A stretch of 64,000 nt of DNA. Source: Bacteroidaceae bacterium. GTDB lineage: Bacteria > Bacteroidota > Bacteroidia > Bacteroidales > Bacteroidaceae. The stretch lies in the NCBI GenBank assembly GCA_017541265.1, contig JAFXZK010000100.1, forward strand, positions 21,119-85,118, read 5' to 3'. Numbering within the stretch: the first letter of the stretch is position 1; each line of letters opens with the position of its first letter. Position numbers and translations under genes: made by a program. Shown here one piece after another: positions 5,716-56,264 of the stretch. The notes below the pieces were generated by a model. The model saw only the letters and a list, made by a program, of their open reading frames with translations. It did not search any database and was not told where the DNA came from.

Positions 5716-7257
5716 ATGCTAAGAAAAATCCGTTTGACCCTTGCCATCCTCTTCTGGGTGCTTATTACCTGGCTCTTGGTTGACTTCACCGGTACGGCAC
5801 ACGCCTACTTAGGATGGATGGCAAAGATTCAGTTCATTCCGGCACTGCTGGCGCTGAACGTGGGGGCACTGCTCTTCGTCGTCGCACTGACGCTGCTGAT
5901 GGGGCGCATCTACTGCTCCGTCATCTGTCCACTGGGCGTGATGCAAGACGCCATCGCCTGGCTGCGGCGTAAAAAGAACAAGTACAGATACTCGCCCGCG
6001 AAGAACACGCTGCGCTACACAGTGCTCGTGCTGGCATGTGCGGCTTTGGCACTCAACGTGGCCTGGCTGGGCGGACTCATCTTCCCCTACAGCACATACG
6101 GACGCATCGTCTCGACCTGCGTCGCCCCCATTGTCAAGCTTGCAAACAACGGACTGGCAGCCATTGCAGAGCACTACGGCAGCTATGCCTTCTACGAAGT
6201 TGACGTCTGGCTGAAAAGCGTCAGTGCCCTCGTCGTGGCTCTGCTGACGTGGGGCATCATCACGGTGCTGGCTTGGAAGAATGGCCGCACCTGGTGCAAC
6301 ACCATCTGTCCCGTCGGCACGCTGCTCGGCCTCATCAGCAAACAGGCACGCCTCAAGATGGTCATCGATGCCGACAAGTGCAAAAACTGCCACAAGTGCG
6401 AACGCAACTGCAAGGCGGCCTGCATCGACCTCGACACACACACTGTCGATTATTCCCGCTGCGTCGTCTGCGGTAACTGCCTCGAAGATTGCAAGTTCGA
6501 TGCGATGCATTTTTGTAGCGCAAAATCCTCGCCGTTCACCCCTCCTCTGGAGGGGACGGGGGAGGCTGTCGGCCGCCGTGCCGCCCTTACCAGCGTGGCA
6601 TTGTTGGCCGGCACAGCCATCGCCAAGGCGCAGGCCAAGGTTGAGCCAAAGACCACCGACGGCGGATTTGCTGACATCATCAAGAAGGAAAAGCCAAAGC
6701 GCGAGAAGCTCATCACGCCTCCCGGCTCGCTCTCCATCCGCAACCTGCGCACCCATTGCACGGCGTGCCAGCTCTGCATCGATGCCTGCCCCAACAATGT
6801 CCTGCGCCCCAGCAGCAGCCTCGACCGCTTCATGCAGCCAGAGGTGAGCTACGAGCGCGGCTACTGCCGTCCCGAGTGCACCCGCTGTTCCGAGGTCTGC
6901 CCAACGTCCGCCATACAGCCCGTCACCGTAGAACAAAGGACAGCCATACAGGTGGGGCACGCCGTCTGGACGCGCGACCTCTGCGTCCCCGTCAAGGACG
7001 GCAAGCCCTGCGGACTCTGTGCCCGCAAGTGTCCGGCACAGGCCATACAGATGGTGCCGCTGCAGGCTGGCGTGCATCAGGATGGCTGGCGCTGGAAGGA
7101 TGCCGACGGGCAAGAGATACCGCGCGAGAAGGTGCTGCTCATCCCCGTCGTCAACGAAGAGAAGTGCATCGGCTGCGGCGCCTGTGAGAACCTCTGTCCG
7201 TCAAGCCCCATCAGCGCCATCTATGTGGAAGGACACGAAGTGCATAAGGAGATTTGA
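5716..7257 (+). CDS. Membrane polyferredoxin, NapH-like half fused to NapG-like ferredoxin half
   Basis: A 513-residue iron-sulphur protein. Residues 1-205 have about four membrane segments (5-25, 38-62, 100-125, 168-186) and two CxxxCP motifs (Cys67/71, Cys194/198), as in NapH-type quinol-oxidising subunits. Residues 222-260 carry two cysteine clusters (CKNCHKCERNC, CVVCGNCLEDC). Residues 272-284 are a translated palindromic element (SPFTPPLEGTGEA). Residues 286-303 (GRRAALTSVALLAGTAIA) look like a twin-arginine export segment. Four more clusters follow (CTACQLC, CRPECTRCSEVC, CGLCARKC, CIGCGACENLC). I infer that the C-terminal half is periplasmic and passes electrons onward, possibly to the Tat-exported reductase encoded 78 bp downstream. 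The electron acceptor is not shown by the sequence. Confidence 0.85.
   Translation: MLRKIRLTLAILFWVLITWLLVDFTGTAHAYLGWMAKIQFIPALLALNVGALLFVVALTLLMGRIYCSVICPLGVMQDAIAWLRRKKNKYRYSPAKNTLRYTVLVLACAALALNVAWLGGLIFPYSTYGRIVSTCVAPIVKLANNGLAAIAEHYGSYAFYEVDVWLKSVSALVVALLTWGIITVLAWKNGRTWCNTICPVGTLLGLISKQARLKMVIDADKCKNCHKCERNCKAACIDLDTHTVDYSRCVVCGNCLEDCKFDAMHFCSAKSSPFTPPLEGTGEAVGRRAALTSVALLAGTAIAKAQAKVEPKTTDGGFADIIKKEKPKREKLITPPGSLSIRNLRTHCTACQLCIDACPNNVLRPSSSLDRFMQPEVSYERGYCRPECTRCSEVCPTSAIQPVTVEQRTAIQVGHAVWTRDLCVPVKDGKPCGLCARKCPAQAIQMVPLQAGVHQDGWRWKDADGQEIPREKVLLIPVVNEEKCIGCGACENLCPSSPISAIYVEGHEVHKEI
6536..6568 (+). repeat. In-frame palindromic element, copy 1 (polyferredoxin)
   Basis: CCCCTCCTCTGGAGGGG hairpin with a G-rich tail (ACGGGGGAGGCTGTC), read through as PPLEGTGEAV in the linker between the two halves of the polyferredoxin. 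Confidence 0.75.
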
Positions 7258-7279
7258 CCCCCGCCTCTTAATTCAATTG

Positions 7280-7320
7280 TCGTAATAACGTAATTACGTC
7301 ATAACGAAATAACGAATAAT
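7280..7320. repeat. Octamer tandem array (TnATAACG type)
   Basis: About five 8-bp copies of TAATAACG / TAATTACG between the polyferredoxin and the aldo/keto reductase. The same octamer family occurs at 19871, 32866, 47592 and 63060. Confidence 0.75.
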
Positions 7321-22203: not shown

Positions 22204-22380
22204 AATAATAAATGTTAAGGGGTTTAATAACTGAAAGATTAAAAGGATTTTTGAAGCGCTTCTGTCTATATATACAGCACACCCCACTTTTTGTAAACCC
22301 CAAAGAACAACTATTTTCAAAGAACAGCACAAAAAACCACAGACACATTATATATATTAACGCGCCCGCACACGCATAAA

Positions 22381-22468
22381 AAAAGTCCGTGGACTTATGG
22401 TAATAAGAACGTGTACTTATGGCGATAAGTACAGGGACTTATGAAGATAAGTACAGGGACTTTTTAGG
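22381..22468. repeat. 22-bp-period tandem array A2, four units
   Basis: Units at 22381, 22403, 22425 and 22447 with inverted arms ATAAGT / ACTTAT around ACAGGG. The gap 22204-22528 (325 bp) contains this array, the hup terminator and an AT-rich stretch and no gene I can support. Confidence 0.9.
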
Positions 22469-22478
22469 GCACAAAAAA

Positions 22479-32859: not shown

Positions 32860-32861
32860 TC

Positions 32862-34970: not shown

Positions 34971-36647
34971 ATGGCTCTTCGATTTTCGCTTCTTATTCTT
35001 CACTTCTCTCTCTTCACCTTTCATTCGGCTTTGGCTGGTGCTCAGACGACATGTCCCGTGGTGAAGATAGAGGCGGTGCGCCTGCCCGACCTGAATGTGC
35101 CGCGTGCCGGACACTCCGTGTTCGTGGTGAACGGCGAGCCAACGGTGGTGGGAGGTCATACCACCAGCTTTGTGCCGACAGCCACCGCTGAATACTTCCG
35201 CGACGGCAAGTGGCACCTCATGCAGACAGCCTATCCCCACGACCAAGGTTTCAGCGTGCCACTCTGTTCAGGCCAGGTTCTCATCGGCGGTGGTCATGCA
35301 GAGCCGCTTGGCATCGGGCACATCCATTCCGTCGAGATGTACGACGCTGCCACACATTCCCTTAAGGGATTCGGCTGCCTCGACACCAAACGGTGCTTTG
35401 CCAGCGCCACGGAGATAGACAGCGGGCGCGTGGTCATTGCAGGCAACTGGTTTAACGACACTCATGACATCGAGTTGTACGACGGACAGAAGTTCTTCCA
35501 CAGCGTGAAGCCTGCGGCGCAGAGGCGGGCACGGCCTCTTGTCCTGCGCATTGCAGAGGACGATGCCATCATCTTCGGCAGAGCGGACGACCACGCGAAC
35601 TTCCTTGACACGATTATTGTTGACCGGCTGAAGGGCGAACCTTTCAGCGTGCCGCTCTTCGACGAGTGGAGGCCCCTGACCTACTTGGAGGAAGCCGACA
35701 GCAGGAGCTTCTGCGTCGCTGGCGAAGGGCAGGACGCATACACCTATCTCCTGCCCGTGGAGAACAAGGACGGACAGATAGCCATCTGCCGCATCGCAGG
35801 CATGAAGTTCTCGCTGCTCCCCACCAACGGCAGCATACCAACAAGCTGCGAGGGCAGGCGCATCATCTACCGCTATTACCTAAACATCGACCATGAAGCC
35901 GGACGTGCCTATCTCTATGGTAGTGGCGACAACGACGGGCGGCTCTATGTGCTTGCCATCGATATTGCCACAAGCCCCGCCGACCTGACACTCTACTACA
36001 CAGAGCCAACGGAGCACCCCGTCTATGGCAGTCCCGTACTGACACCCGACGGCGACCTCTTGCTCACTGGTGGCATGGAGATATGCCCCGACTCCACCGT
36101 TGATAACTTCACGCCCCATGCCACCGTCCTCCTGCTACCCGTGGGGCACAACTCCCTCCCTTTAAGGGAGGGTTGGGGTGGGTCTTACACCTGGCTGTGG
36201 ACGGCCTTGACGCTACTGGCACTCACCGCCTTGTCTGTTCTGCTATGGCGGCGCAGGAAAGCAAAGACCGCAGAAGGGGTAAAGTCCAGTGATGCCATTA
36301 CTGGCACCGACACCGACGAGGCGCTGATGCAACGCATCTGCCAACTGATGGACAAAGAGCAACCTTACTTGAACAGCGAATTGAAGATAGCCGACATTGC
36401 CGGCAGCCTCGGCACCAACGTCTCGTACGTCTCTGCCTGCATCAACCGGCAGAAGGGTTGCTCGTTCAACCAGTTTGTAAACGGCTATCGCATCAACCAC
36501 GCCAAGAACCTGTTGCGTCGCAGTCCCGACAAGAAGATGTCCGAGGTGTGGGCGGCATCGGGCTTTGCCAACGAGACATCGTTCTTCCGCACCTTCAAGA
36601 CACTCACAGGCATGACGCCTACGGAGTGGAAAGCCCAAATCGACTGA
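34971..36647 (+). CDS. Membrane-anchored AraC-family regulator with extracytoplasmic kelch-like sensor
   Basis: 558 residues. Signal or first helix 1-23; a beta-propeller of kelch type at about 30-390 (AGHSVFVVNGEPTVVGGHTT, VLIGGGHAEP, RVVIAGNWFNDTHDIELYDG); a translated palindromic element at 394-405 (NSLPLREGWGGS); one membrane helix at 406-426; a basic stop-transfer (RRRK); and a cytosolic AraC-type helix-turn-helix at about 449-556 (IADIAGSLGTNVSYVSACIN, KMSEVWAASGFANETSFFRTF). This is a one-component sensor that joins an outside propeller to DNA binding. The propeller is clearly related to the C-terminal domain of the next gene product (shared GGHTTSFV). The neighbouring exported protein is therefore a probable target or partner. 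There is no kinase domain. Confidence 0.88.
   Translation: MALRFSLLILHFSLFTFHSALAGAQTTCPVVKIEAVRLPDLNVPRAGHSVFVVNGEPTVVGGHTTSFVPTATAEYFRDGKWHLMQTAYPHDQGFSVPLCSGQVLIGGGHAEPLGIGHIHSVEMYDAATHSLKGFGCLDTKRCFASATEIDSGRVVIAGNWFNDTHDIELYDGQKFFHSVKPAAQRRARPLVLRIAEDDAIIFGRADDHANFLDTIIVDRLKGEPFSVPLFDEWRPLTYLEEADSRSFCVAGEGQDAYTYLLPVENKDGQIAICRIAGMKFSLLPTNGSIPTSCEGRRIIYRYYLNIDHEAGRAYLYGSGDNDGRLYVLAIDIATSPADLTLYYTEPTEHPVYGSPVLTPDGDLLLTGGMEICPDSTVDNFTPHATVLLLPVGHNSLPLREGWGGSYTWLWTALTLLALTALSVLLWRRRKAKTAEGVKSSDAITGTDTDEALMQRICQLMDKEQPYLNSELKIADIAGSLGTNVSYVSACINRQKGCSFNQFVNGYRINHAKNLLRRSPDKKMSEVWAASGFANETSFFRTFKTLTGMTPTEWKAQID
36149..36188 (+). repeat. In-frame palindromic element, copy 2 (kelch-AraC regulator)
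   Basis: CTCCCTCCCTTTAAGGGAGG hairpin plus tail TTGGGGTGGGTCT, read as SLPLREGWGGS just outside the membrane helix. It is nearly identical to the second copy in the glycosyltransferase at 47162. Confidence 0.85.
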
Positions 36648-39700: not shown

Positions 39701-40101
39701 TCAAGGACGACGGCTTCAGCCCCGTCATCATCGAATACACCTATCCTATTGTCTCAAGCCCCGAAAGCGGCAACATCGTGGTGTATGCGACAGACAAGCC
39801 TCTCGCAAAGCATGTGGATAATGCCGCATGGACAATGCTCCCCGACGGCACTCTGCTTTCCGCAGGCGGCGGCGACAGCAACTTCGCGCCCCACAAGCAG
39901 TCCTTCATCTACAATCTGGGCGACGGCAGCGACGACCCCGATGGCATCAAGGAATTGGACAATTGGACAATTGGACAATCTAACAATTGTCAAATGGTGA
40001 AATCGTCAAATTGTCAAATTTATAGCCTCAGCGGTCAGCGCCTGAGCAAGCCCCAGCGCGGCCTGAACATCATCGACGGCAAGAAAATTGTAATCAGGTA
40101 A
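36742..40101 (+). CDS. Exported GLUG / BspA-LRR / kelch multidomain surface protein
   Basis: 1119 residues. A signal peptide ends GAWAQ. About 30-290: GLUG-like beta-helix (IADIDLGDD, GTFDGNGHTL) ending with the EEQLANGE module. About 310-680: BspA-type leucine-rich repeats (IGEDAFYNCPEMTSLTIP, VGKEAFSHCEALTTIDLP). About 690-1040: kelch-like propeller (GFVVFGGHTTSFVRTQSAERY, KMLLAGGMSGNGG, KIYINGCWYNSSYGLECY) homologous to the sensor of the upstream regulator. The end (IYSLSGQRLSKPQRGLNIIDG) is the shared sorting-like tail. Residues about 1072-1092 are translated short repeats (NWTIGQSNNCQMVKSSNCQ). The start at 36742 follows the promoter. Probably a surface adhesin or binding protein controlled by, or sensed like, its neighbour. 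Confidence 0.85.
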   Translation: MKKTRQLLISLLTLLCCSTGAWAQNQDGEGNYLIGSVQDWKAFATLVQTEPTANARMIADIDLGDDQTTVGTQDVPYAGTFDGNGHTLTVAYSQNIHGLAPFRYINGATIQRIHITGTIDTQTGKCAAGIVSYSTGGTTTISECWSSAKLKGDDTMGGICAVIQDGTMNINDCLVDGTISGSNAFNGGFISHPDNTATVNINNGLFLRYADADVYWSGTFFRSDQDWFGPRNLYNCYYFYPYGYPQGIQATEEQLANGETARALQAGRPEQVWVQDMDMGQPMLKVFATEQEPSGMFCYIYNHDTQTATVTYLRDSDSNKKGGTYVGDVVIPAKAPNGYDVTVIGEDAFYNCPEMTSLTIPATIDSIGCEPFAESGAQLTKITIEDGDTPIRCHVRDAWPMGCYPVFGRYVNVEELYIGRNYSSFVSRGWVEAVYEGSWSLIRDSEHLKKVTLGNVFTEVPYAMFYGCTQLQEVNINPNAKSVGKEAFSHCEALTTIDLPEGIETIDEEAFYYCKALEHIGLPKTLGVIGGNAFTNCDAFSSFTIPASVDSIGANILADCDNLKRIDIAYSSEPLKYYCPSQFQNSLRSAPIDTLYTDRYIDGALSDNRTLKKLYIGPNVTALHDYNFSDCYNIDEVFSLNPEPPTCEGSSVFYSGTKQSATLHVPVGSLDAYKEAYIWKDFFNIVDDIGSDEPCEPTLTQEKLYATRLADMGTARICHQIMPTDDGFVVFGGHTTSFVRTQSAERYNIATDSWTQMTMLYCQDYAAGIVTADGKMLLAGGMSGNGGSGASSLCELYNPDDNSFTATGSMVQARSMATATMTKSGKIYINGCWYNSSYGLECYDPETGTFSKVGDGLNANHPLLLSLRNERVAIIDGSKMVVVENGTTTNVTSELLTEYPILKGWDEAQMKYYQARDYSYIVVGKSATQAVLLSIYDDAAEGIKITKIADLPMTLPDNESVGIGYHDQGTRVFCNNAKHKVYVQTTIKDDGFSPVIIEYTYPIVSSPESGNIVVYATDKPLAKHVDNAAWTMLPDGTLLSAGGGDSNFAPHKQSFIYNLGDGSDDPDGIKELDNWTIGQSNNCQMVKSSNCQIYSLSGQRLSKPQRGLNIIDGKKIVIR
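39954..40021 (+). repeat. Nonamer then octamer arrays inside a coding gene
   Basis: Three copies of ATTGGACAA (9 bp) followed by four 8-bp copies of the TTGTCAAA family, translated just before the sorting-like tail. The same octamer is expanded at 42388 in another gene. Confidence 0.8.
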
Positions 40102-40126
40102 AAGACAGATAGATAGAGAAGGTTGC

Positions 40127-40236
40127 AAAAACCCCTGTACTTGTTGCCATAAGTACAGGGGTTTATTGCAATAAGTACACGGACTTATGACAATAAGTAC
40201 AGGGACTTATGGCGACAAGTACGGGGACTTATTTCA
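40127..40236. repeat. 22-bp-period tandem array A3, five units
   Basis: Units at 40127, 40149, 40171, 40193 and 40215 with arms ATAAGT / ACTTAT. It lies between the surface-protein stop and the purD promoter. Confidence 0.9.
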
Positions 40237-40276
40237 GATTATCACCAAAAGCTTATTCAATTCCAAATTTATTTCG

Positions 40277-40316: not shown

Positions 40317-41624
40317 ATGAAGATACTGTTGTTAGGCAGTGGCGGGCGAGAGCACGCGCTGGCATGGAAGATTGCACAAAGCGAGAAATGCGAGAAGCTT
40401 TATATTGCCCCAGGCAATGCAGGCACAGCAGACGTGGGCGAAAATGTCAACATCAAAGTGAACGACTTCGAGGGCATCAAGGCGTTTTGCCTCGACAAAG
40501 GCATCACAATGGTCGTGGTCGGCCCTGAAGACCCGCTGGTGAACGGCATCTACGACTTCTTCAAAGAAGACGAACAGCTCAAGCGCACCCCCGTCATCGG
40601 ACCTTCGAAGGCAGGCGCAAGGCTGGAAGGTAGCAAGGACTTCGCCAAGGGCTTCATGCAGAGGCATGGCATCCCGACGGCAGCCTACCGCACCTTCACC
40701 GCAGCCACTGTGGAGGAAGGCATCTCCTTCCTCAAAACCCTGCAGCCCCCATACGTCCTTAAAGCCGACGGCCTCTGCGCCGGCAAGGGCGTACTCATCG
40801 TGCCAACACTCGAAGAGGCCAAGCACACCCTTATGGATATGCTGGGCTTGGACTCCTCCCCTCGGGGAGGGAGGGAGGGGGCTACCCCCATGTTCGGCGA
40901 TGCCAGCAGCCGCGTGGTCATCGAGGAGTTTCTGGATGGCATCGAGTGCAGCGTCTTTGTCCTCACCGACGGCAACAGTTATAAGATACTGCCCGAGGCG
41001 AAGGATTACAAGCGCATCGGCGAGGGCGACACCGGCCTCAACACGGGCGGCATGGGCAGCGTCAGCCCTGTGCCTTTCGCCACGAAAGAATGGATGCAGA
41101 AGGTGGAAGACCGCATCATCCGCCCCACGGTTGAAGGTCTCAAGGCAGAGGGCATCGACTACAAGGGCTTCATCTTCTTCGGCCTCATCAATGTAAAAGG
41201 TGAGCCGAAGGTCATCGAGTACAACGTCCGCATGGGCGACCCCGAGACGGAAACCGTCATGCTGCGCCTGAAGAGCGACCTCGTGGATCTCTTCGAAGGC
41301 GTTGCCACAGGCACCCTTGCAGAGAAGGAGGTTGTCTTCGACGAAAGGGCTGCCGTCTGCGTTATGCTGGTCAGTGGCGGCTACCCCGGCGCGTACGAGA
41401 AAGGTTTCCCCATAAGTGGCCTCGAAGACATTTGGGGCAGCATCGTCTTCCATGCAGGGACAGCCCTGAAGGATGGTGAGGTAGTAACCAACGGCGGGCG
41501 TGTCATTGCCGTCAGCAGCTATGGCAAGGACAAGGAAGAAGCCTTGCAGAAGAGCTTCGCCAACGCCAAGCTGATAAAGTTCGAAGGCAAGAACTTCCGC
41601 CGAGACATCGGGAAAGACCTATAG
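40317..41624 (+). CDS. purD: Phosphoribosylamine-glycine ligase with in-frame repeat insertion
   Basis: 435 residues. GAR synthetase joins glycine to phosphoribosylamine in purine synthesis. It has an N-terminal domain ([18 protein letters not shown]), an ATP-grasp domain (about 105-320: [37 protein letters not shown]) and the C-terminal part with [17 protein letters not shown]. Residues about 177-191 ([14 protein letters not shown]) are extra relative to what I recall of the family, where the preceding helix runs directly into [14 protein letters not shown]. They are encoded by a GC-rich palindromic element. As the rest of the enzyme is intact, the insertion is probably tolerated in a surface loop. 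Confidence 0.97.
40852..40891 (+). repeat. In-frame palindromic element, copy 3 (purD)
   Basis: CTCCTCCCCTCGGGGAGGG hairpin with tail AGGGAGGGGGCTACC, read as [11 protein letters not shown] within the ATP-grasp domain. Confidence 0.85.
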
Positions 41625-41754: not shown

Positions 41755-42792
41755 GTGATACGAAGTCGGTTGCAGAACAAAGTGGCGGGAAGCGTCTTTA
41801 CGCTGCCTGTGTGTGTCGTCGCGGCGGTCGCAATGTGGTGGCTGCCGGAGCGAACATTCTCTGTAAGCAACCTCTTGGGGCTGGCGCTTTGCCTGCTGAC
41901 GACCTACATCGTCATGGAAACCAATGCCCAGCAGCACATCATCCGCATCCGCACCCGCATGATGTCGTGCGTGTGGCTTGTGCTGTCTGCCAGCCTTGCG
42001 TTCATGCATCCCTTTGGGAAGCCCCTCATCAGTGCAGCTTTCCTCTGTGCCGGCTACTTCCTGCTTTTCCGCTGCTACCAGAAGCACCGCCCGCAGGCGT
42101 ATGTCTTCCATGCCTTTCTCATGCTCAGTCTGGGCAGCTTCTTTGCACCCGTCATGCTGGCAATGGCGATACCCTTCTTCCTTTACCTCATCGTCTTCCT
42201 GCGCTCCCTGACAAAGAAAGCCTTTTGGGCAGGCATACTCGGACTCATCGTGCCCTACTGGTGCTATGCGGTGTGGCTGTTTTTAGGGGTTAGAGGTGAG
42301 ATGTCAGAGGTTAGAGAATTGTTTGGAAATATGACCTTGGGGCAAGAGTTTTCTCTAACCCATAACCTCTTGTTCCTAACCGCCAAGTTGTCAAATTGCC
42401 AAATTGTGAAATTGTCAAATTGTCAAATTGTGAAATTATCAAGTGTTGCAGTCGTCGCCCTGCTCAGCATTGTCAGCATCATACACTACCTCCGTACCAA
42501 CTATGATGACAAGATACGCGTGCGCATGATACTATATATATATGTCGTGCAGACATTGTTGCTGATGGCATTCCTTATCCTTCAGCCCGGGCAATACGAA
42601 ACCACAATGGCACTCCTTGTTGCCAGTGCCAGCCCGCTCATTGCGCATTACTTCGCGCTCAGCAAAAGCATCTGGTGTACCGTCTTTTTCTTTATCTCGC
42701 TGCTACTCACGGCAGCAATGGCGGCGGTGAACCTTTTTGACCTTCCAATCCCTCAAACTCTTAATCTTTCCGCTCTACCAAATGTCTTCTGA
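41755..42792 (+). CDS. Polytopic membrane protein, DUF6427-like
   Basis: 345 residues from a GTG start. About ten hydrophobic segments span the protein (for example VAGSVFTLPVCVVAAVAMWW, FFLYLIVFL, AFWAGILGLIVPYWCY, IYVVQTLLLMAFLIL, WCTVFFFISLLLTAAMAAV). The layout matches the DUF6427 proteins often found next to purD in Bacteroidales. Function unknown. Residues 211-237 are three perfect copies of KLSNCQIV encoded by an 8-bp DNA repeat and placed in a loop before a membrane helix. The 3' end overlaps the convergent fasciclin gene by 18 bp. The GTG start is uncertain; no promoter was recognised apart from read-through from purD. Confidence 0.8.
   Translation: MIRSRLQNKVAGSVFTLPVCVVAAVAMWWLPERTFSVSNLLGLALCLLTTYIVMETNAQQHIIRIRTRMMSCVWLVLSASLAFMHPFGKPLISAAFLCAGYFLLFRCYQKHRPQAYVFHAFLMLSLGSFFAPVMLAMAIPFFLYLIVFLRSLTKKAFWAGILGLIVPYWCYAVWLFLGVRGEMSEVRELFGNMTLGQEFSLTHNLLFLTAKLSNCQIVKLSNCQIVKLSSVAVVALLSIVSIIHYLRTNYDDKIRVRMILYIYVVQTLLLMAFLILQPGQYETTMALLVASASPLIAHYFALSKSIWCTVFFFISLLLTAAMAAVNLFDLPIPQTLNLSALPNVF
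42388..42442 (+). repeat. Octamer array TTGTCAAA expanded inside a coding gene
   Basis: Seven 8-bp units (TTGTCAAA, TTGCCAAA, TTGTGAAA and so on). Three units equal 24 bp, so the peptide KLSNCQIV repeats exactly in frame. Confidence 0.92.
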
Positions 42793-44987: not shown

Positions 44988-45075
44988 CAAACATTTTTAA
45001 TAACTTGTATGGATTTCCCAAACTAAATTCGATAATCTGCAAGTGTTGTAAATGAAAGAGTTAATTGTGTACGCA

Positions 45076-45163
45076 AAAAGTCCCTGTTCTTATGGCGACA
45101 AGTACACGGACTTATGGAGACAAGTACAGGGACTTATGGAGATAAGTACGGGGACTTGTTGTC
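45076..45163. repeat. 22-bp-period tandem array A4, four units
   Basis: Units at 45076, 45098, 45120 and 45142 (arms ACAAGT or ATAAGT with ACTTAT). It occupies the divergent gap between the fasciclin gene and the first glycosyltransferase. The rest of the gap 44956-45268 (313 bp) holds only promoter elements. Confidence 0.9.
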
Positions 45164-45255
45164 CCTATCTATTTGAAATCGCGTGCAAAGGTGCGGAAAA
45201 AAACAAACTATCACAGAAAACATGGCATCTTTTTGGCTTTTCACTCACTTATTTG

Positions 45256-45263
45256 TAAATTTG
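45256..45263 (+). promoter_or_regulatory. -7-like element immediately before the glycosyltransferase ATG
   Basis: TAAATTTG followed by CAGGC, with only 5 bp before the ATG at 45269. If it is the real promoter, the transcript would be leaderless or nearly so. Confidence 0.5.
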
Positions 45264-45268
45264 CAGGC

Positions 45269-46312
45269 ATGAAGCCCTATCTCGTCGATATTCCGGTGCT
45301 CATCCTGTTCTTCAACAGGCCGCAGCAGCTCGGCCAGGTCTTTGACCAGGTGCGCAAGGCGCGTCCGTCGCGGCTCTTCCTCTATCAGGACGGTCCGCGA
45401 AGCGAGGCAGACATGCCCGGCATACTCGCTTGCCGCGACATCGTGGCGCAGGTGGACTGGGACTGCCAGGTCGAAACGCTCTATCAGGAGAAGAACTTCG
45501 GCTGTGACCCTTCGGAGTACATCTCGCAGAAGTGGGCGTTCAGCCATGTGGACAAGTGTGTCGTGCTGGAGGACGACGACGTGCCCGCCGTCAGCTTCTT
45601 CGCCTTCTGCAAGGAGATGCTGGAACGCTATGAGCACGACGAACGCATCACGATGGTCAGCGGCTTCAACGTCGAGGAGCAGACCGACGACATCGACGGC
45701 GACTACTTCTTCACAACGAACTTCAGCATCTGGGGCTGGGCATCGTGGCGACGTGTTGTGGACCAGTGGGACGAGCACTACACTTGGCTCGACAACCCTG
45801 TAGCCGTCCGCCAGCTGGAAGAGCTGATACGCGAACGGGGCTACCGCGACGACTTCCTGCCCATGTGCCGCAAGCACCGTGAACAAGGCAAGGCATTCTA
45901 CGAGACCATATTCTGGGCGCACATGCTCCTCTCGAACGGTCTTGCCATCGTGCCCCGCAGGAACATGATAAACAACCTCGGCGCCACAGCCGACAGCACC
46001 CACTTTGGCGGTTCGCTCCAGACGATGCCGCGAGGCTATCGCCGCATCTTCACAATGAAGCGCTTCGAGCACTCCAAGTTCTCCCCCTCTACGGGGGAGT
46101 TAGAGGGGGTCTGTCACCCTCCCTACGTCATCGAGCACGTCGCCTACCGCCACCGTGCCTACCACATCATGGGCTGGATGTGCCCGATGGTCAAGGTGGG
46201 ACGCTCCTTCGAGGAACTCTTCCTGAACCTCCGCTACGGCAACTTCCAGTTCATCCTCAAATCCATACGCAACCGCATCAACAAATGGATGGGAAAGGAG
46301 GCTTATCGATGA
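45269..46312 (+). CDS. Glycosyltransferase family 2-like protein (HlpA/sugar transferase type)
   Basis: 347 residues. The GT-A-like start IPVLILFFNRPQQLGQVFDQ leads to LFLYQDGPR and the metal-binding VVLEDDDVPAVSFF. A conserved TNFSIWGWASWRRVVDQWD and FYETIFWAHMLLS follow. The type is often annotated in Bacteroidales as a sugar transferase or hemolytic-protein HlpA-like. Donor and acceptor are unknown. Residues about 272-285 (FSPSTGELEGVCH) are a translated palindromic element. It overlaps the next glycosyltransferase by four bases (ATGA), so the two are co-translated in a surface-glycan operon. The start at 45269 is chosen over 45173 because the upstream codons run through a repeat array. 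Confidence 0.85.
   Translation: MKPYLVDIPVLILFFNRPQQLGQVFDQVRKARPSRLFLYQDGPRSEADMPGILACRDIVAQVDWDCQVETLYQEKNFGCDPSEYISQKWAFSHVDKCVVLEDDDVPAVSFFAFCKEMLERYEHDERITMVSGFNVEEQTDDIDGDYFFTTNFSIWGWASWRRVVDQWDEHYTWLDNPVAVRQLEELIRERGYRDDFLPMCRKHREQGKAFYETIFWAHMLLSNGLAIVPRRNMINNLGATADSTHFGGSLQTMPRGYRRIFTMKRFEHSKFSPSTGELEGVCHPPYVIEHVAYRHRAYHIMGWMCPMVKVGRSFEELFLNLRYGNFQFILKSIRNRINKWMGKEAYR
46079..46117 (+). repeat. In-frame palindromic element, copy 4 (glycosyltransferase)
   Basis: CTCCCCCTCTACGGGGGAG hairpin with tail TTAGAGGGGGTCTGTC, read as SPSTGELEGVC. Confidence 0.85.
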
Positions 46313-47592
46313 GAGTTCTTCTCGTCAGCACCAGCGAACGGAGCGGCGGCGGTGCAATTGCTGCACGCCGACTCATGAATGCCCTCAACAGGAATGGTGT
46401 AGAGGCAAAGCTCATGGTGCGCGACAAACAGAGCAATGACAATGCTGTGGTCAAGGTAGGCAATAAGCTCCCAAAGTTTCTGGAACGCCTTGCCATCCTG
46501 CCCCGCTGCTGCCCACCTTCTCACCTTTTCACCTTTTCACCTTTTCACCTTTTACGTTCCCGCCTCTGGCAGATAGACATCGCCAACGTCGGCATCGATA
46601 TCACCAAGACCAAGGAGTTCAAGGAGGCAGACGTCATCCATCTGCACTGGATAAACCAGGGAATGCTTTCCCTCGACGGACTGGAGAGAATCATGAGCAG
46701 CGGCAAGCGCGTCGTCTGGACACTGCACGACGAATGGCCCTACCTGGGTGTCTGCCACTACCGTGGCGACTGCACCGAAAAGGAATGCAAGCACTGCCCT
46801 CTTATGAGCGGCTCTCTACCTTATACTATATATGCACGAAAACGTGCGATGTACCAGCGCTGGCATCCCACCTTCGTGGGCTGCAGCCAATGGATTACCG
46901 ATGAGGCACGGCGTGCCTTGCCCTCAGAGCGCGTGGAGCACATCAACAACTGCATCCCCTCTGCCCTCTTCCACCCCACCGACATGCAGCAGGCACGCCA
47001 GTCCCTCGCCCTTCCGCAGGACAAACGCCTGCTACTCTTCTGCAGCCAAAAGGTGACAGACGAAAGAAAGGGCATCAAGTATCTTGTCGAGGCACTGAGG
47101 AAGACCCTCTCAAAAGACCCCTCTAAATCTCCCCTTAAAGGGGAGACTTCCTGTGCTGCTTCCTCCCTCCCTTTAAGGGAGGGTTGGAATAGGTCTTTGG
47201 TCATCGTGGGCAAGGACTCGGAGCAGATACCGTTGCCCGACGACATTCCCGTCTTCCGCTTCGGCTCAGTCAATGAAGAGATGATGGCAAAGCTCTACAA
47301 CGCCGCCGATGTCTTCCTCACACCCAGCCTGCAGGACAACCTGCCCAACACCATCGCCGAGGCAATGAGCTGCGGCACGCCCTGCGTAGGCTTCAACGTG
47401 GGCGGCATACCCGAGATGATTGACCATCTTGAGAACGGCTATGTGGCACGCTACCGCGATGCCGCCGACCTTGCCGAAGGCATCCGCTACGTCCTCAGCC
47501 ACGACCTGCGCGCCGCCGCCCACAGTAAAGCCGCCGCAGCCTACGACGAGACACAAGTCGCAAAGGAATACATCAAGCTGTTCTCGTCATAA
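46309..47592 (+). CDS. Glycosyltransferase family 4-like protein with three translated repeats
   Basis: 427 residues. It has an N-terminal Rossmann half (RVLLVSTSERSGGGAIAARR, ADVIHLHWINQG, VVWTLHDEWPYLGVCHYRGD) and a C-terminal GT-B half with the donor motif NAADVFLTPSLQDNLPNTIAEAM and GTPCVGFNVGGIPEMI. The start ATG overlaps the upstream TGA. Three stretches are not family sequence: HLFTFSPFHLL (about 72-82) from an 8-bp repeat, and SKSPLKGETS and SSLPLREGWNRS (about 272-295) from two palindromic elements in tandem. The two halves look intact, so the insertions fall in loops. It probably adds sugars from nucleotide donors to a surface glycan. Confidence 0.88.
   Translation: MRVLLVSTSERSGGGAIAARRLMNALNRNGVEAKLMVRDKQSNDNAVVKVGNKLPKFLERLAILPRCCPPSHLFTFSPFHLLRSRLWQIDIANVGIDITKTKEFKEADVIHLHWINQGMLSLDGLERIMSSGKRVVWTLHDEWPYLGVCHYRGDCTEKECKHCPLMSGSLPYTIYARKRAMYQRWHPTFVGCSQWITDEARRALPSERVEHINNCIPSALFHPTDMQQARQSLALPQDKRLLLFCSQKVTDERKGIKYLVEALRKTLSKDPSKSPLKGETSCAASSLPLREGWNRSLVIVGKDSEQIPLPDDIPVFRFGSVNEEMMAKLYNAADVFLTPSLQDNLPNTIAEAMSCGTPCVGFNVGGIPEMIDHLENGYVARYRDAADLAEGIRYVLSHDLRAAAHSKAAAAYDETQVAKEYIKLFSS
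46514..46554 (+). repeat. Octamer array TTTTCACC inside a coding gene
   Basis: Five 8-bp copies (one TTCTCACC, then TTTTCACC), translated as SHLFTFSPFHLL in the glycosyltransferase. Confidence 0.85.
47110..47198 (+). repeat. In-frame palindromic elements, copies 5 and 6 (tandem, glycosyltransferase)
   Basis: First copy 47116-47150 (ATCTCCCCTTAAAGGGGAGA) and second 47162-47198 (CTCCCTTTAAGGGAGGGTTGG), 12 bp apart in the same orientation and the same frame. Confidence 0.88.
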
Positions 47593-47622
47593 CGATATCA
47601 CGTTATAACGTAATAACGAAAG
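47590..47622. repeat. Octamer tandem array (TTATAACG type)
   Basis: Three to four 8-bp copies (ATATCACG, TTATAACG, TAATAACG) starting at the glycosyltransferase stop codon. Confidence 0.8.
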
Positions 47623-47638
47623 AATTATCTGAGAGACC

Positions 47639-48485: not shown

Positions 48486-49124
48486 ATGTTACTGCCATAC
48501 TACCATAAAGACGTTATTGAAGCTGGCTGCGACGAAGCCGGTCGCGGCTGCCTTGCCGGGCCAGTCTTTGCCGCCGCAGTCATCCTGCCACCCGACTTCA
48601 AGAGTGACTTGCTGAACGACTCCAAGCAACTCAGCGAGAAGAAGCGCTACGCCTTGCGCGAAGTCATCGAGCGCGAGGCGCTGGCCTGGGCTGTGGGCAT
48701 CGTCACGAACGAAGAGATAGACCGCATCAACATCCTGCGTGCCAGCATCCTCGCCATGCACCGCGCCCTTGACCAGCTCAAGGTGAGACCCGAGGAAATC
48801 ATCGTCGACGGCAACCGCTTCATGCCATACGCTCCTCCTCTCCCAGAAGGAGGTCGAGGGGAGGCTCTGCCCTATACCACCATCGTCAAGGGCGACGGCA
48901 AGTACATGAGCATCGCAGCCGCCAGCATCCTCGCCAAGACCTACCGCGACGACTACATGCAGAAGCTCCACAAGGAATACCCTGCCTACCACTGGGACAA
49001 GAACAAAGGCTACCCTGCCCCGGCGCACCGCCAGGCCATCCGCGAACACGGCACAACCCCCTACCACCGCATGACCTTCAACCTCCTCGGCTCCCCACAG
49101 CTGGAGTTTGACTTCAACCCATAG
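48486..49124 (+). CDS. rnhB: Ribonuclease HII with in-frame repeat insertion
   Basis: 212 residues. RNase HII removes ribonucleotides from DNA and RNA-DNA hybrids. The active site is visible as Asp16-Glu17 ([13 protein letters not shown]), Asp108 (IIVDGNRF) and Asp155 or Asp156 (KTYRDDYM). [10 protein letters not shown] and HHR-region residues are present. Residues about 116-128 ([13 protein letters not shown]) are a translated palindromic element between NRFMPY and [14 protein letters not shown], a place where homologues as I recall them have only a short loop. Catalytic residues on either side are intact. The start is set right after a heptamer array; no separate promoter was seen. Confidence 0.96.
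48832..48871 (+). repeat. In-frame palindromic element, copy 7 (rnhB)
   Basis: CTCCTCCTCTCCCAGAAGGAGG hairpin with tail TCGAGGGGAGGCTCTGCC, read as [13 protein letters not shown]. Confidence 0.8.
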
Positions 49125-49161: not shown

Positions 49162-51228
49162 ATGAAAAAACGACTACTACACCTTATCTTTGTGCTGCTG
49201 GCCATCTTTGCGGCACAGGCACAGGAGCTTACCGTGTGTACCTACAACCTGAGGTACAAGAACTCCGGCGACACTGATGCCGGCAACGGCTGGAACACCC
49301 GCCGCACCTACCTCATCAACTTCGTCAACTTCCAGATGCCCGACTTGCTTGGCATACAGGAAGGGTTGCCGGCACAGATGACCGACATGAGGAACGGACT
49401 GACCGCTTACGGCAGTATCGGCGTAGGACGTAACGATGGGGACAACAGCGGCGAGTATTCCGCCATCTTTTACCGTAAGGAGCGCATGGTGTTACTCGAC
49501 CATGGCGACTTCTGGTTGAGCGACACGCCCTACAAGCCCTCGAAAGGCTTCCCGAGCAAAGGCGGAGGCACCTCGTACTACCGCATTTGCACATGGGGCA
49601 AGTTCTATGACAAGCTCACCGGAGTCATTCTCTTCCACTTCAACACCCACATGGACCTCGACGAGACAAACCGTCAGCAATCCTACTATCTCATCAAGCA
49701 GAAGATTCAGGAGCTTGCCAGCACAACGGCACCCGTCATCATAACCGGCGACTACAATGCTGTGCAGACTGGCGACTCCTACAAGTTGTTCTACAATTCT
49801 GGCTTCCTCTACGACTGCTATGCCCAGGCCAAGCAAAAGTTTATAACGAACGGCACATGCCCGGGCTTCAATGCCAACACCTACAGCACCGTATCGGGGG
49901 AGCTGCGGCGCATCGACCACATCTTTGTCACGCAGAGGGCATTCGACATCATGCATTATGCTGTGCTCAACCCATGCTACTACTCCACATCCGGCACAGC
50001 GACCTACCACGAAAGGGCATACTCCGACCATAGCCCTGTGCTGGCAAAGCTTGCCTACAAGAGAAACGTGCCGACGGTTGAGCTTGCCACGACCAAGCCT
50101 CCCATCGTTAACGGCTATTACCAGCTCTCCACTCCGGAAGAGCTGCAAACCTTCTCGTTCATCGTCAACGGCATAGCCGGCTTCTCACAGAACACAGCCG
50201 CAAAGGCAGTCCTGCTGAACGACATCGACATGACGGGCATGACAAGCTGGCTGCCCATCGGGACGAACAGCAAGCCCTTCACCGGCACGTTCGACGGCCA
50301 GGGGCACACCATCAGCAACATTGCCATCAAGACGGCCAAGGCCTATTCCGGACTGTTCGGCAAGACACAAGGCGCTACCATCAAGAACTTCCGCATCAGC
50401 GGCACGCTCAACGTATCCGAGGGCTATAGCGAACACGGCACCGTGGGATATGCCGACGGCTCGACTATCACGGACGTATATTCGTCGCTGAACATCACCA
50501 CCAGCAAGGCAAACAACGACACGCAACACATCGGCGGCATTGCCGGCTCACTGTTCAACACCTCCACCGTCAACAGATGCTCGTATGCCGGCACTCTCAA
50601 GGACGCAGGCACCAACACCGTGGGCGGCATCGTGGGCTATGCCGACGGCACCGGCAACAAGATATCCAACGCCATCAACTACGGCACAGTCAAATCCAGC
50701 GGTGCCGAAACGAACACGGGCGGCATACTCGGCTATGTGAACTACGCGGGCTTCAAGATTTCCCGCTGTGTCAACACTGGAACTGTAACCGGCAAGGAAG
50801 CATACGCCGGACAAATCATTGGCCGACAGCTGAAGGCAATGACCACGCCTCCCTCCGACCTTTACTATCTGGACGGAGCCGACCTGACAGCTTTCGGCTC
50901 GGGCACAGCGGAAGCGTCTGCCACAGGCGCCACCGCCGTCACAGCCGAGCAGCTGGCAAGCGGCGAGGTCTGCTACAAGCTGAACGGCGACCAGAGCGAA
51001 ATCAACTGGTACCAGATTATTGGCGAGGATGCATACCCGGTCCTCGACGAAAGCCATGGCATCGTCATCTTCGAGGACGGCATCTACACAGGCATAGAAT
51101 CTCCCTTTGAGTCCCAAGAGACCTATAAGCCCGATGAAACCGATGAGATTTACAACCTCGCCGGCCAGCGCATCGGCAAGCTGCAGAAGGGCATCAACAT
51201 CGTGAACGGAAAGAAAATACTGAAGTAA
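49162..51228 (+). CDS. Secreted EEP nuclease/phosphatase fused to GLUG repeats with sorting-like tail
   Basis: 688 residues. A signal peptide ends FAAQAQ. Residues about 22-300 are an endonuclease/exonuclease/phosphatase domain with all expected motifs: Asn29 (TYNLRY), Glu67 (LGIQEG), the FNTHMD histidine, GDYNAVQ, RRIDHIFV and SDHSPV. Residues about 310-640 are GLUG-type beta-helix repeats (LLNDIDMTGM, GTFDGQGHTISN, GGIVGYADG) ending in the AEQLASGEVCYKLNGDQSE module. The tail is IYNLAGQRIGKLQKGINIVNG. Probably a cell-surface phosphodiesterase held by an adhesive scaffold. The next gene is an inactive-looking EEP homologue, and two larger GLUG proteins follow further on. Confidence 0.9.
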   Translation: MKKRLLHLIFVLLAIFAAQAQELTVCTYNLRYKNSGDTDAGNGWNTRRTYLINFVNFQMPDLLGIQEGLPAQMTDMRNGLTAYGSIGVGRNDGDNSGEYSAIFYRKERMVLLDHGDFWLSDTPYKPSKGFPSKGGGTSYYRICTWGKFYDKLTGVILFHFNTHMDLDETNRQQSYYLIKQKIQELASTTAPVIITGDYNAVQTGDSYKLFYNSGFLYDCYAQAKQKFITNGTCPGFNANTYSTVSGELRRIDHIFVTQRAFDIMHYAVLNPCYYSTSGTATYHERAYSDHSPVLAKLAYKRNVPTVELATTKPPIVNGYYQLSTPEELQTFSFIVNGIAGFSQNTAAKAVLLNDIDMTGMTSWLPIGTNSKPFTGTFDGQGHTISNIAIKTAKAYSGLFGKTQGATIKNFRISGTLNVSEGYSEHGTVGYADGSTITDVYSSLNITTSKANNDTQHIGGIAGSLFNTSTVNRCSYAGTLKDAGTNTVGGIVGYADGTGNKISNAINYGTVKSSGAETNTGGILGYVNYAGFKISRCVNTGTVTGKEAYAGQIIGRQLKAMTTPPSDLYYLDGADLTAFGSGTAEASATGATAVTAEQLASGEVCYKLNGDQSEINWYQIIGEDAYPVLDESHGIVIFEDGIYTGIESPFESQETYKPDETDEIYNLAGQRIGKLQKGINIVNGKKILK

Positions 51229-51229
51229 A

Positions 51230-51268
51230 GCCTCTCCCCGGCCCTCCCCTAAAGGGAAGGGGGAACAA
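51230..51268 (-). repeat. Palindromic element in reverse orientation after a stop codon
   Basis: Reads as the reverse complement of the coding copies (AGCCTCTCCCCGGCCCTCCC, then CTAAAGGG), two bases after the stop of the EEP-GLUG gene. Confidence 0.7.
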
Positions 51269-51306: not shown

Positions 51307-51417
51307 GTTTGGGCGGATTTGCAATCCGCCCGCAGAGAATATAGGGATTTACAATCCCGCAACATATAATACGCATTACAAATGCCTATACCCAAACCTG
51401 TCGGATTGCAAATCCGA
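51307..51417. repeat. Four-hairpin dispersed element, copy 2 (inverted)
   Basis: Palindromes in order: GGGCGGATTTGCAATCCGCCC with one mismatch at most (21 bp from about 51321), GGGATTTACAATCCC, GCATTACAAATGC and GTCGGATTGCAAATCCGAC. This is the reverse-complement order of copy 1. It lies between the active and the inactive EEP genes. Confidence 0.85.
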
Positions 51418-51493
51418 CAGAACAGAGAACAGGGCAATTGTTACTTACTAAACTTGAATTTCTTAAATCCAAACTCATAATTAAATTACTACA

Positions 51494-52464: not shown

Positions 52465-52521
52465 CGCGACACCTTTCCGAATAACCCGAAAACCCTTTAC
52501 ATAAAATCTGGCGTTTTCGGC

Positions 52522-52631
52522 AATAACATGTGGGTTGTTGGTCATAAGTCCCTGTACTTATGACCAACAACCCACGTTCTTATCACCATAAGTCCACGTT
52601 CTTGTTGCCCAAAGCCCCTGTTCTTTCTACC
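52522..52631. repeat. 22-bp-period tandem array A5, five units
   Basis: Units at 52522, 52544, 52566, 52588 and 52610 on the opposite strand relative to arrays A2-A4 (arms ATAAGT / ACTTAT, core CCCTGT or CCACGT). Confidence 0.88.
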
Positions 52632-52982: not shown

Positions 52983-53147
52983 TAGCATTTAACATTCTTT
53001 AACAGCCCGAGACAGCATGGTTTACATATTTTTATATATTTTTATGTCCGAAATGTGCGCTACGCGCATATACATGCGCCTACAAGAAGCAATATGGAAT
53101 CAAATTTAGAAACAAACATAGTATCAAACCTTTTAATTAACAACAAC

Positions 53148-56100
53148 ATGAAACAAAAGTTTTACTATCTTCTCCTGACTGCCCTTTTGGGCATGACAGG
53201 AATGAATGCGTGGGCACAGGACTACGAGATTACCTGCGCCCAAGACCTCATCGACTTCGCCGAGGCAGTCAATGGCGGCGAGACAGGCGCCAATGCCGTG
53301 CTGGCAAACGACATTGACATGACTGGTGTTGCCTGGACAACCCCCATCGGCGACTGGAACACAGGTGCTGTCACCTCTGCCTATTGTGGTCACTTCGACG
53401 GTCAAGGTCATACCATTTCTGGCCTGACCTACACCACGGCAAAGAACTACCATGGCTTCTTTGGTGTCATCTCTACTGGTGCGCTCATTGAGAATTTCAC
53501 CATCTATGGAACGGTTGCAAACAATCAAACCACTATGGGTGTCGTTGGTTACGCTCGTGATGCGACTCCCACTATTCGCAACGTCCACAGCTATCTGAAC
53601 ATTAACAATTCAAAGGCAGGTGCTAGATTAGGTGGCATCTTGGGTAGCTCTGTTAATGGCACAATCGTTGTTGAGAACTGTACCTATTCTGGCACATTGG
53701 ATGGCAACGATGCAGGCGGCAGCGGCAACTATGGCGGCATCGTGGGCTATGTCAACAACAACGCCAACGCACACCTTCAAGTCACTAACTGTCTGTTTGA
53801 TGGTCAGCTCATTAACGAAGCCGAAACTCCTGGCACATGTACCTTCGGCGGCATAGTAGGTTATGTCGGAGCCAGTCCTGATGTAACAATCACAAACTGT
53901 TTGTCTATCGGCACCGTACAGTCTCAAATTTATGGTCAGTTCTATGGCGCAGTCAAGCACAACACCTGCTCCATCATCAACAGCTTCTATCAGGGCGATA
54001 AGGTTAATGGTGCTGCAAACGGTGCCGTTACCCCTACAACTCAGGAGGCAACAGAAGTTACAGACGCCCAGCTTGCCAGTGGCGAGATTGCCTTCAAACT
54101 GAACGGCGACCAAAGCGATATCAACTGGTTCCAAGTTCTGTCGAGAATCTTCATCGCCCAAGATTATGTCGTAACGGTCAATAATGGAACGCCACGCGAC
54201 CCAGAGCACACAGAAGTCAGTTTGACAGAAGAAGGCAGTGGCAAATATACCTTCACGCTTCCCAACTTTGTCATTCACACCAACAACAGCTACGTTGGTG
54301 ATCTCGAAATCGGTGACCTGTCCCATGAGAATATTACCATCACCGATGAAGGCTTATTCTCAGCAGGAGGAACATTCGATGTTCCAGACGAGAACATTCC
54401 CAGCCAAATGTCAATGTTTGCGTCTGCATTCAAAAACATTCCTTATGAGCTCAATGGCAAGGTTAACAACGAGGACAAGCTCTATGCAACCCTCGACATC
54501 GTGCTCACTTTGACTGGTCTCGGTAAGTTTACTGTTTTTGTTGAGATGGGTGACGACGACTTTACAGCCGCAGCTCCTCTTGCCGCAGAACCATATCCTA
54601 CGCCTTACGGCACTTCCGTTGTCTATGCAAATGGTAAATTCTATTGCGACGGTGTTACACCAAAGGAGGGTTCAGAGATAACTTATAGCAATACCGATGG
54701 CAGCATCGTTGACAACCACGTCTTTGACAACGGTTTCTGCACAGTTTGCGGTGCTCTCAAAGAGAATTATATGACAGCAGATGCAGACGGATTCTTCGAG
54801 ATTGGCACAGCAGCCCAGCTCAAGTGGTTTGCCGCATACGTTAACCAGAAGGACGTTGCAGCCAATGCAAAACTGACAGCCGACATCGACCTGACTGGCG
54901 TAGAATGGACTTCCATCGGCATCGGCTCTGGCAACGCAGCACCTGGCGCAACAGCTTACACTGGCACTTTCGACGGACAGGGAAAGACCATCACAGGCTT
55001 CTATGCAGAAGGAGCAGGACACCTCGGCCTCTTCGGCGATGTTAGCGGTGCCACCATTAAGGACTTTAGCATCAGCGGCACACTTAATGTGACGGGCGGC
55101 TACGGCGGCGGCGTTGTCGCTTGGCCTATCAACAGCACAATCGAGAATGTATATTCCGCTCTTGTCGTTAGCGTTCCCAACAGTAGCACACACCATGTCG
55201 GCGGCGTGGTAGGTTCCGCCCGTGGCGGCAACACCATCAGCGGATGCACCTTCAGCGGCTCTTTAACAGTGGTAGCAGGTAGCACCGACAACTTCGCTGG
55301 CATTGCAGCTTACATCACAAACGGCGACAATGTTATTAACTGCGCCAACTACGGTGACGTTACATTCTCTGATGCTGGCTGTGCAGCAGGCGGCATCGTG
55401 GGATATGTCAATGCCCAGCAAGCATACGTACAGAGCTGTCTGAGCACAGGCACAATCCTCTTCGACGGCGAAGGCACAGCCAAATATGGTGCAGCTATCC
55501 TCGGTCGCACAAAAGGTTATGACGCAGCCAAGGTTACAAACAACTACTGGCTTGAAGGAAGTGCCAACGGTGCAGCAAAGAAAGACGACGGAACAGATCC
55601 TCTGGCAACAGGAAGCGTAACTGCTGAGCAGCTTGCAAGCGGTGAGGTTGCTTACAAGTTTGGCGAGGCTTGGAGCCAGTTCCTCGGCACAGATAAAGTT
55701 CCTGTACCTGGCGGCGTCACACCTGTTTCCTATATTGGCGAAGCTGGCTATGCAACAATGTATGACACAACATCAGGTTATGAGCTGAATGGCGACGTAA
55801 CGGCTTACGTTGCTACCGCCAGCGGCAATTGGCTTGTGCTCACTGAGATTGAGAATGTTCCTGTCGGCACTCCTGTCATCCTGAAGGGTGGCTATTACAA
55901 CAAGATTGCTGCTGACCTGCCTGCCATCAACATTGCAAACGACCTCCTGGGTACTGATGTTGCCACCGAAGCCGACGGCACACAATACATCCTCGCTCTC
56001 GCTAAACCCGCAGAAGCAGAAGCAGAAGAAATTGGTTTCTACAAGGCTGAAACAGGCACTATCATCCCCGCTGGCAAGGCTTATTATAAGAGCACAAACG

Positions 56101-56264
56101 GCGTTAAGGCCTTCTTCTTCACTGAGGACGATGCAACTGGCATCGCTGTTTCTCCCCTCGCGGAGACGGAAGAGGGGGCTACTATCTTCAACCTCGCCGG
56201 TCAACGCATCAGCAAGGCTCAGAAGGGCATCAACATCATGAACGGCAAGAAGATCTTGAAGTAA
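53148..56264 (+). CDS. Giant exported GLUG-repeat protein with calycin-like domain
   Basis: 1038 residues from the ATG at 53148 (signal peptide ends NAWAQ). GLUG block one (about 25-320: GHFDGQGHTISGLTYTT, NYGGIVGYVNNN) ends in the QLASGEIAFKLNGDQSDIN module. About 335-475 is a calycin/lipocalin-like barrel (GKYTFTLPNFVIHTNNSYVG). GLUG block two follows (about 540-840: TADIDLTGVEWTSIG, GGVVGSARGGNTISG). About 860-1000 is a beta domain (GYATMYDTTSGYELNG) with a translated palindromic element (VSPLAETEEGA). The tail is IFNLAGQRISKAQKGINIMNG. The product is probably surface-exposed or secreted through type IX secretion. Its GLUG blocks closely resemble those of the next gene. Confidence 0.85.
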   Translation: MKQKFYYLLLTALLGMTGMNAWAQDYEITCAQDLIDFAEAVNGGETGANAVLANDIDMTGVAWTTPIGDWNTGAVTSAYCGHFDGQGHTISGLTYTTAKNYHGFFGVISTGALIENFTIYGTVANNQTTMGVVGYARDATPTIRNVHSYLNINNSKAGARLGGILGSSVNGTIVVENCTYSGTLDGNDAGGSGNYGGIVGYVNNNANAHLQVTNCLFDGQLINEAETPGTCTFGGIVGYVGASPDVTITNCLSIGTVQSQIYGQFYGAVKHNTCSIINSFYQGDKVNGAANGAVTPTTQEATEVTDAQLASGEIAFKLNGDQSDINWFQVLSRIFIAQDYVVTVNNGTPRDPEHTEVSLTEEGSGKYTFTLPNFVIHTNNSYVGDLEIGDLSHENITITDEGLFSAGGTFDVPDENIPSQMSMFASAFKNIPYELNGKVNNEDKLYATLDIVLTLTGLGKFTVFVEMGDDDFTAAAPLAAEPYPTPYGTSVVYANGKFYCDGVTPKEGSEITYSNTDGSIVDNHVFDNGFCTVCGALKENYMTADADGFFEIGTAAQLKWFAAYVNQKDVAANAKLTADIDLTGVEWTSIGIGSGNAAPGATAYTGTFDGQGKTITGFYAEGAGHLGLFGDVSGATIKDFSISGTLNVTGGYGGGVVAWPINSTIENVYSALVVSVPNSSTHHVGGVVGSARGGNTISGCTFSGSLTVVAGSTDNFAGIAAYITNGDNVINCANYGDVTFSDAGCAAGGIVGYVNAQQAYVQSCLSTGTILFDGEGTAKYGAAILGRTKGYDAAKVTNNYWLEGSANGAAKKDDGTDPLATGSVTAEQLASGEVAYKFGEAWSQFLGTDKVPVPGGVTPVSYIGEAGYATMYDTTSGYELNGDVTAYVATASGNWLVLTEIENVPVGTPVILKGGYYNKIAADLPAINIANDLLGTDVATEADGTQYILALAKPAEAEAEEIGFYKAETGTIIPAGKAYYKSTNGVKAFFFTEDDATGIAVSPLAETEEGATIFNLAGQRISKAQKGINIMNGKKILK
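56150..56186 (+). repeat. In-frame palindromic element, copy 8 (giant GLUG protein)
   Basis: CTCCCCTCGCGGAGACGG with tail AAGAGGGGGCTACT, read as SPLAETEEGAT directly before the sorting-like tail. Its hairpin is more degenerate than the others. Confidence 0.7.

Follow-up and report, generated by a model that had tools for sequence, protein, structure and literature searches.

Rickettsia palindromic elements (RPEs) are short palindromes that lie in unrelated genes and are read through in frame; to our knowledge the mobilizer of such coding palindromes is not settled. Vsr-like homing endonucleases have reportedly been treated in a family study of 'fractured genes'. One paper identifies intragenic repeats of R. 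conorii as RPE-4 and RPE-6, records intragenic REPs in several species and assigns two large REP superfamilies to a GTAG or a CGTC tag (PMC3733652). The DNA analysed here is a stretch of 64,000 nt (the window) from a Bacteroidaceae MAG that is 87% complete and comprises 143 contigs, in which a palindromic sequence recurs both within and between genes. The data make it probable that the repeat belongs to a mobile element that is palindromic and encodes a nuclease, that many derivatives of this element lack the gene and are tolerated in genes where both ends stay open, and, jointly with this, that the window copies represent either single ends or short two-ended forms derived from a fuller DUF559 unit lying outside the window.

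Copies were called, in the window and in 418 kb made up of the window and stretches of other contigs of the same genome, by a finder for a hairpin followed by a G-rich tail. In the window the finder made 14 calls, compared with 1 when the window was reversed; for the 418 kb the corresponding figures were 87 and 4. The 87 calls form 64 clusters, and some of the calls represent a single hairpin recognized on both strands. Symmetric hairpins near 21,060 and 22,480, which account for 4 of the 14 window calls, were left out of the copy count. The ten copies listed by the first-pass annotation are present at their positions, and their number is well above the chance level seen in reversed sequence. 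Across the whole genome a 16-base hairpin pattern, allowing up to 3 mismatches, matched 174 times in the forward form and 15 times when reversed. Among the 80 listed of 89 named contigs with the exact end pattern, the titles refer to uncultured Prevotellaceae, Bacteroidaceae or Bacteroidales and, where they give a source, to rumen, omasum or reindeer.

Each end consists of a pyrimidine-rich/purine-rich hairpin and, after it, a G-rich tail with GGCT or GGTCT as its last bases. Many copies are facing pairs with the plan AG(A)CC-hairpin ... hairpin-GG(T)CT, which fall into several subfamilies; 90 non-redundant inverted hairpin pairs were collected, and these short units, from which the gene is missing, measure 64-142 bp within the limits of the scan. 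The full-length unit in the source genome (n=4) is 436-501 bp long and holds a single gene, DUF559 (PF04480), between its ends. At the 90 short units, flanking repeats of 2-9 nt, the mark of target duplication, are not in excess; the first two bases outside these units favour T, read outward. A rule that in-gene short units have lengths in multiples of three was rejected, there being no such bias (14/58). As short-unit length is unbiased modulo three, insertions are not clean events of fixed length, a point that counts against the mobile-element reading.

The DUF559 gene came to light on contig C16 in a search for genes between facing ends. Facing ends enclose all four DUF559 matches of the source genome (109-114 bits; Pfam cut-off 20.6), and within each locus the two ends are alike. 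In a set of 34 loci, comprising these four and the 30 best-scoring loci fetched from 121 genus genomes, with ends sought within 220 nt, both ends were present at 20 loci and at least one at 27, compared with 12 and 261, respectively, of 3,000 random windows. The strict finder saw no end at 7 of the 34, three of which are cut by contig ends; three others of the seven (L215, L231 and L237) have matching flanks in a motif-free test, in which the left flank is aligned with the reverse complement of the right flank from the same locus or from swapped loci. By this test 31 genus loci gave a median score of 29 against 9.5 for swapped pairs, with 21 of the 31 above the 95th percentile of the latter (p 5e-16); 26 loci from the wider phylum gave 14 against 8.5, with 8 above that percentile (p 5e-7). 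Loci in which the nuclease is fused to another gene (19 of the 20 fetched) gave 28 against 10 (p 1e-8), although, with several loci representing a single insertion into one gene, no individual locus rises above the 95th percentile for swapped loci. In 1.54 Mb, 29 intervals of 250-900 bp are bounded by facing ends, five of them with DUF559; intervals with mutually similar ends (score at least 18) numbered seven, again five with DUF559, the threshold having been set after the scores were seen and the sample, partly fetched by the end pattern, not being independent. As the two ends of a DUF559 locus are far more alike than the ends of different loci, the gene and its ends look to be a single unit.

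This likeness within loci argues against an alternative that we regard as unlikely, namely that host recombination or replication errors spread the repeats and that DUF559 is cargo inserted between existing ends. Such a history would accommodate the hundreds of pattern hits beside few DUF559 copies, and the mobility of the unit is itself deduced from sequence comparison; repeat number, however, tracks the presence of DUF559. Across the 121 genus genomes the repeat-to-control ratio correlates with DUF559 (Spearman 0.61), is higher in the 84 genomes with the gene than in the 37 without it (p 2e-8) and exceeds twofold in 52 of the former and 5 of the latter (Fisher p 5e-7), all three comparisons ignoring phylogeny. 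The five genomes that carry repeats without a DUF559 match, and that favour the cargo model, are G012, G018, G027, G082 and G127, all 80-87% complete MAGs; G027 has 142 pattern hits.

A REP/REPIN-type system moved by a Y1 HUH transposase (RAYT), with DUF559 as a passenger between two REPs, appears decidedly improbable. The architecture of tag plus hairpin, arranged in inverted pairs without target duplication, is REPIN-like, Y1_Tnp has four matches in the source genome and occurs in 23 of 61 genus genomes (the source and 60 others), and repeats are slightly more numerous in Y1-positive genomes (p 0.03). However, none of 32 Y1 loci is bracketed by window-type ends in flanks of up to 1.5 kb; at L001, L002 and L079 the hairpin calls lie 0.2-1.3 kb from the Y1 gene, and ten of the 32 loci read by eye, a reading rather than a test, have hairpins of other sequence. 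Furthermore, a Y1 match is absent from 38 of the 61 genomes, including G005, G020 and G064, each with more than 100 pattern hits. On the flanks at the 32 loci, where bracketing was absent, and the search of the 61 genomes, Y1/RAYT was rejected as the mobilizer. The preferred reading, a unit that carries its own nuclease gene, is pursued below.

Other repeats share the window with this element. A second palindromic family (GGCGGATT..AATCCGCC) occupies 31195-31312 and 51314-51426 and also flanks a Y1 transposase gene at L003 of the source genome; the family and the L003 gene are probably a separate REP/RAYT pair. A RAYT-like reading frame at L004 (G000:C122) contains repeated in-frame GGCGAGAACGCCGCTAAAGTGCACGG copies. 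Arrays of a 22-nt unit (ATAAGTACAGGGACTTATG...) are present at 22358-22487, 40104-40255, 45053-45182 and 52521-52606, and on several contigs of the genome, while short arrays of several different sequences, each with a period of 8 nt, lie at 7281-7314, 32861-32894, 39945-40025, 42377-42458, 47585-47626 and 63053-63094.

Table 1. Palindromic ends and units in the window.
Feature	Position	Strand	Context	Detail
Single end	6539..6567	+	inside 4Fe-4S protein gene 5716-7257	peptide PPLEGTGEA
Single end	36154..36185	+	inside AraC-type regulator gene 34971-36647	peptide LPLREGWGGS
Single end	40855..40883	+	inside purD 40317-41624	net 39-nt insertion
Single end	46080..46112	+	inside gene without Pfam match 45173-46312	other reading phase
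Complete short unit	47115..47196	.	inside glycosyltransferase gene 46180-47592	net 72 nt
Single end	48832..48866	+	inside rnhB 48486-49124	net 30 nt
Single end	51229..51263	-	directly after stop codon of 49162-51228	
Single end	56151..56180	+	near 3' end of Calycin-like protein gene 53055-56264	
Single end	62100..62130	-	directly after stop codon of 56344-62097	

The copies of Table 1 include one complete unit, in the glycosyltransferase gene, which is an inverted pair of an antisense left end (about 47115-47146) and a right end at 47165-47196. Three single ends resemble the ends of DUF559 units: the copy at 6539 scores 27 over 29 nt against an end of L250 (G115), that at 36154 scores 28 of 32 against an end of L211 of the source genome, and that at 51229 scores 29 of 35 against the right end of L213, also of the source genome. 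The copies at 48832, 56151 and 62100 match DUF559 ends weakly (scores 15-17). The first-pass annotation had looked to homologues for clean presence and absence, and in alignments this held for purD, where the 39-nt insert is missing from all nine relatives, and for the glycosyltransferase, where the 72-nt insert is missing from all seven; the 30-nt insert in rnhB is absent from only five of seven, being present in G005 and, in diverged form, in G013. These relatives without the insert support the view, also put forward at first pass, that palindromes entered genes in frame in a manner Rickettsia-like by concept. The copy at 46079 is missing from eight of eight relatives, at a site of variable length that carries an unrelated insert in one of them. 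At 6536 the insertion is common to G027, the sole relative aligned, where a left half also remains; the fetched stretches of G027 hold homologues of most window genes, in order. Sole relatives were likewise aligned at 56151 (G005) and 62100 (G035), and both have other sequence at the site, while no homologue of the AraC-type regulator gene was found in the relatives' fetched stretches.

The wider behaviour of the copies was assessed in 1.6 Mb comprising contigs of the source genome, stretches of relatives, the Y1 loci and those named contigs that a search with one end pattern had retrieved. Removal of calls shorter than 26 nt and of repeats with identical 30-nt flanks left 361 copies, from which orthologous copies were removed only in part. 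With genes called by our own codon-usage script rather than a standard gene finder, 201 copies lie well inside genes, 111 are intergenic and 49 are at gene edges; as 73% of the sampled bases were called coding, this is not an enrichment in genes. Ordinary hairpins selected in place, as terminators or structured RNA, are hardly credible as the source of the repeats, for although the copies at 51229 and 62100 follow stop codons, in opposite orientation as first described, the number inside genes, the absence of several in-gene copies from homologues, the lack of any Rfam match to the window at gathering score and the variation of pattern hits within the genus, from background level to 495 per genome, all speak against it.

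The claim that in-gene copies always share one orientation did not survive, since the left end at 47115 is antisense and the 201 in-gene copies of the 1.6-Mb sample divide into 100 sense and 101 antisense. Reading phase, by contrast with orientation, is biased relative to random expectation. In six of the seven sense copies of the window the last base of the tail is also the last base of a codon, so that the proposed common frame stands except at 46079; the same phase is taken by 74 of the 100 sense copies in the 1.6-Mb sample, whereas stop-free chance predicts ∼39%. The two commonest peptides, which are part of the searched pattern, account for 35 sense copies; once these are omitted, 39 of 65 are in the favoured phase. 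Antisense in-gene copies divide among the phases as 46, 32 and 23. The favoured phase may reflect tolerance of the peptide.

Whole nuclease units are also read through in frame. L213 of the source genome is a 436-nt unit inside an epimerase gene, the whole forming one frame of 487 residues. The site measures 516 nt in the source genome and G024 against 111 nt in nine relatives, one further locus being unmeasurable; the net gain of 405 nt from a 436-nt unit implies that ∼31 nt of target were replaced. The exact site is common to the source genome and G024, and is empty in G012, which is close to G024 (identity is 92-95% for G012-G024 and 83-85% for G024 and the source genome). The two inserts are as diverged as their flanks, and this comparison, in which an excess similarity of insert over flanks was looked for as a mark of homing and not seen, gave no sign of recent transfer of the unit. 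Either independent arrival at the one site or loss through recombination would be consistent with this distribution, and the equal divergence of insert and flanks is compatible with both. In miaB of G121 the corresponding segment is 561 nt long; 14 relatives have 93-153 nt, every length being a multiple of three, and in one further relative the segment was not found. Among nine fused proteins, chosen for long frames among the genus hits, Pfam placed a host domain beside DUF559 in eight (epimerase, polysaccharide-synthesis, radical SAM, guanylate kinase, GcpE, phosphoglycerate mutase, AA_kinase and aconitase); the ninth is DUF559 only. Hits from the wider phylum include more long frames, three of which we take to be two leucyl-tRNA synthetases and one MetH.

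DUF559 (PF04480) is, by family assignment from its sequence, a Vsr-like nuclease. The residues D57, E68, D70 and H74 are invariant in 11 aligned sequences, and the domain matches the PDB sequences 3hrl (E 3e-26) and 3r3p, a 'Mobile intron protein' (E 1e-8), as well as the PADLOC HEase model (E 6e-6). We take 3r3p to be I-Bth0305I, a homing endonuclease. Fused domains are conserved at the protein level: pN was 0.07-0.40 against pS of 0.66-0.98 in 38 of the 40 pairs compared, a set that does not include the epimerase pair, and the two remaining pairs consist of almost identical sequences (dN/dS 0.44 and 0.27). At L232, L235, L249, L250, L257 and L258, from six genus genomes, DUF559 is fused to the front of guanylate kinase (Pfam on L235), and here too the nuclease domain is constrained. 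A Caulobacter DUF559 protein, VsrA, is required for the SOS response in cells without a methyltransferase; the account terms it a predicted mismatch-repair endonuclease, and its main text is free of words beginning palindrom- or transpos- (PMC12907096). Among the papers listed, no title or abstract opening links DUF559 to palindromic ends, in a search whose coverage excluded most subscription journals.

The association may extend to other phyla. Eight plasmid loci from outside Bacteroidota were taken among 25 listed of 48 matching records, and in the motif-free test five exceeded all swapped pairs and three did not. Flanks matching as C/G-rich hairpins occur at four of the eight (two Pseudanabaena, Sphingomonas and Deinococcus), and to judge from these flanks the element class may reach beyond Bacteroidota; the fifth locus, L332, is marginal (14.0 against 12.5) and its match is of another kind. 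At L329, on a Pseudanabaena galeata plasmid, DUF559 stands between translated palindrome-like peptides in a long protein annotated DUF559 domain-containing.

We infer that DUF559 drives the movement, a proposal drawn from sequence comparison. In such a scheme the nuclease would promote copying by cutting or nicking DNA, repair would accomplish insertion without target duplication, and the short gene-less forms would be mobilized in trans; insertions would be retained if they fall in loops or termini and leave the frame open. The stricter proposition, that one Vsr-like (DUF559) nuclease rather than a DDE or HUH transposase mobilizes itself and hundreds of gene-less hairpin derivatives, which survive in frame in housekeeping genes without splicing, we hold to be evenly poised. 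If right, it would supply an autonomous partner for coding palindromes, give a role to a widespread domain and illustrate how a mobile element could persist within important genes in the form of an insert that is translated.

The element thus described resembles several known systems in part. Like RPEs it places palindromes in genes, with the frame kept and homologues free of the insert (purD, glycosyltransferase and rnhB), but it occurs in another taxon and has a longer form with a nuclease gene, and the likeness is to the description of RPEs rather than to their sequence. With REPs and REPINs it shares ends of tag plus hairpin, inverted pairs (90), many copies and insertion without target duplication; its tail, however, ends in AGCC or AGACC, not GTAG or CGTC, and its ends bracket DUF559 rather than the scanned Y1 loci. 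Short inverted-end derivatives that lack the gene of a longer element recall MITEs, although those of DDE transposons differ in the target-site duplication that is missing from the 90 units here. Caulobacter VsrA has the Pfam domain DUF559 in common with the unit. Finally, the match of DUF559 to 3r3p and the presence of nuclease genes within host genes are features in common with Vsr-like homing endonucleases, whereas here the frame runs straight through the unit, which has hairpin ends and gene-less derivatives.
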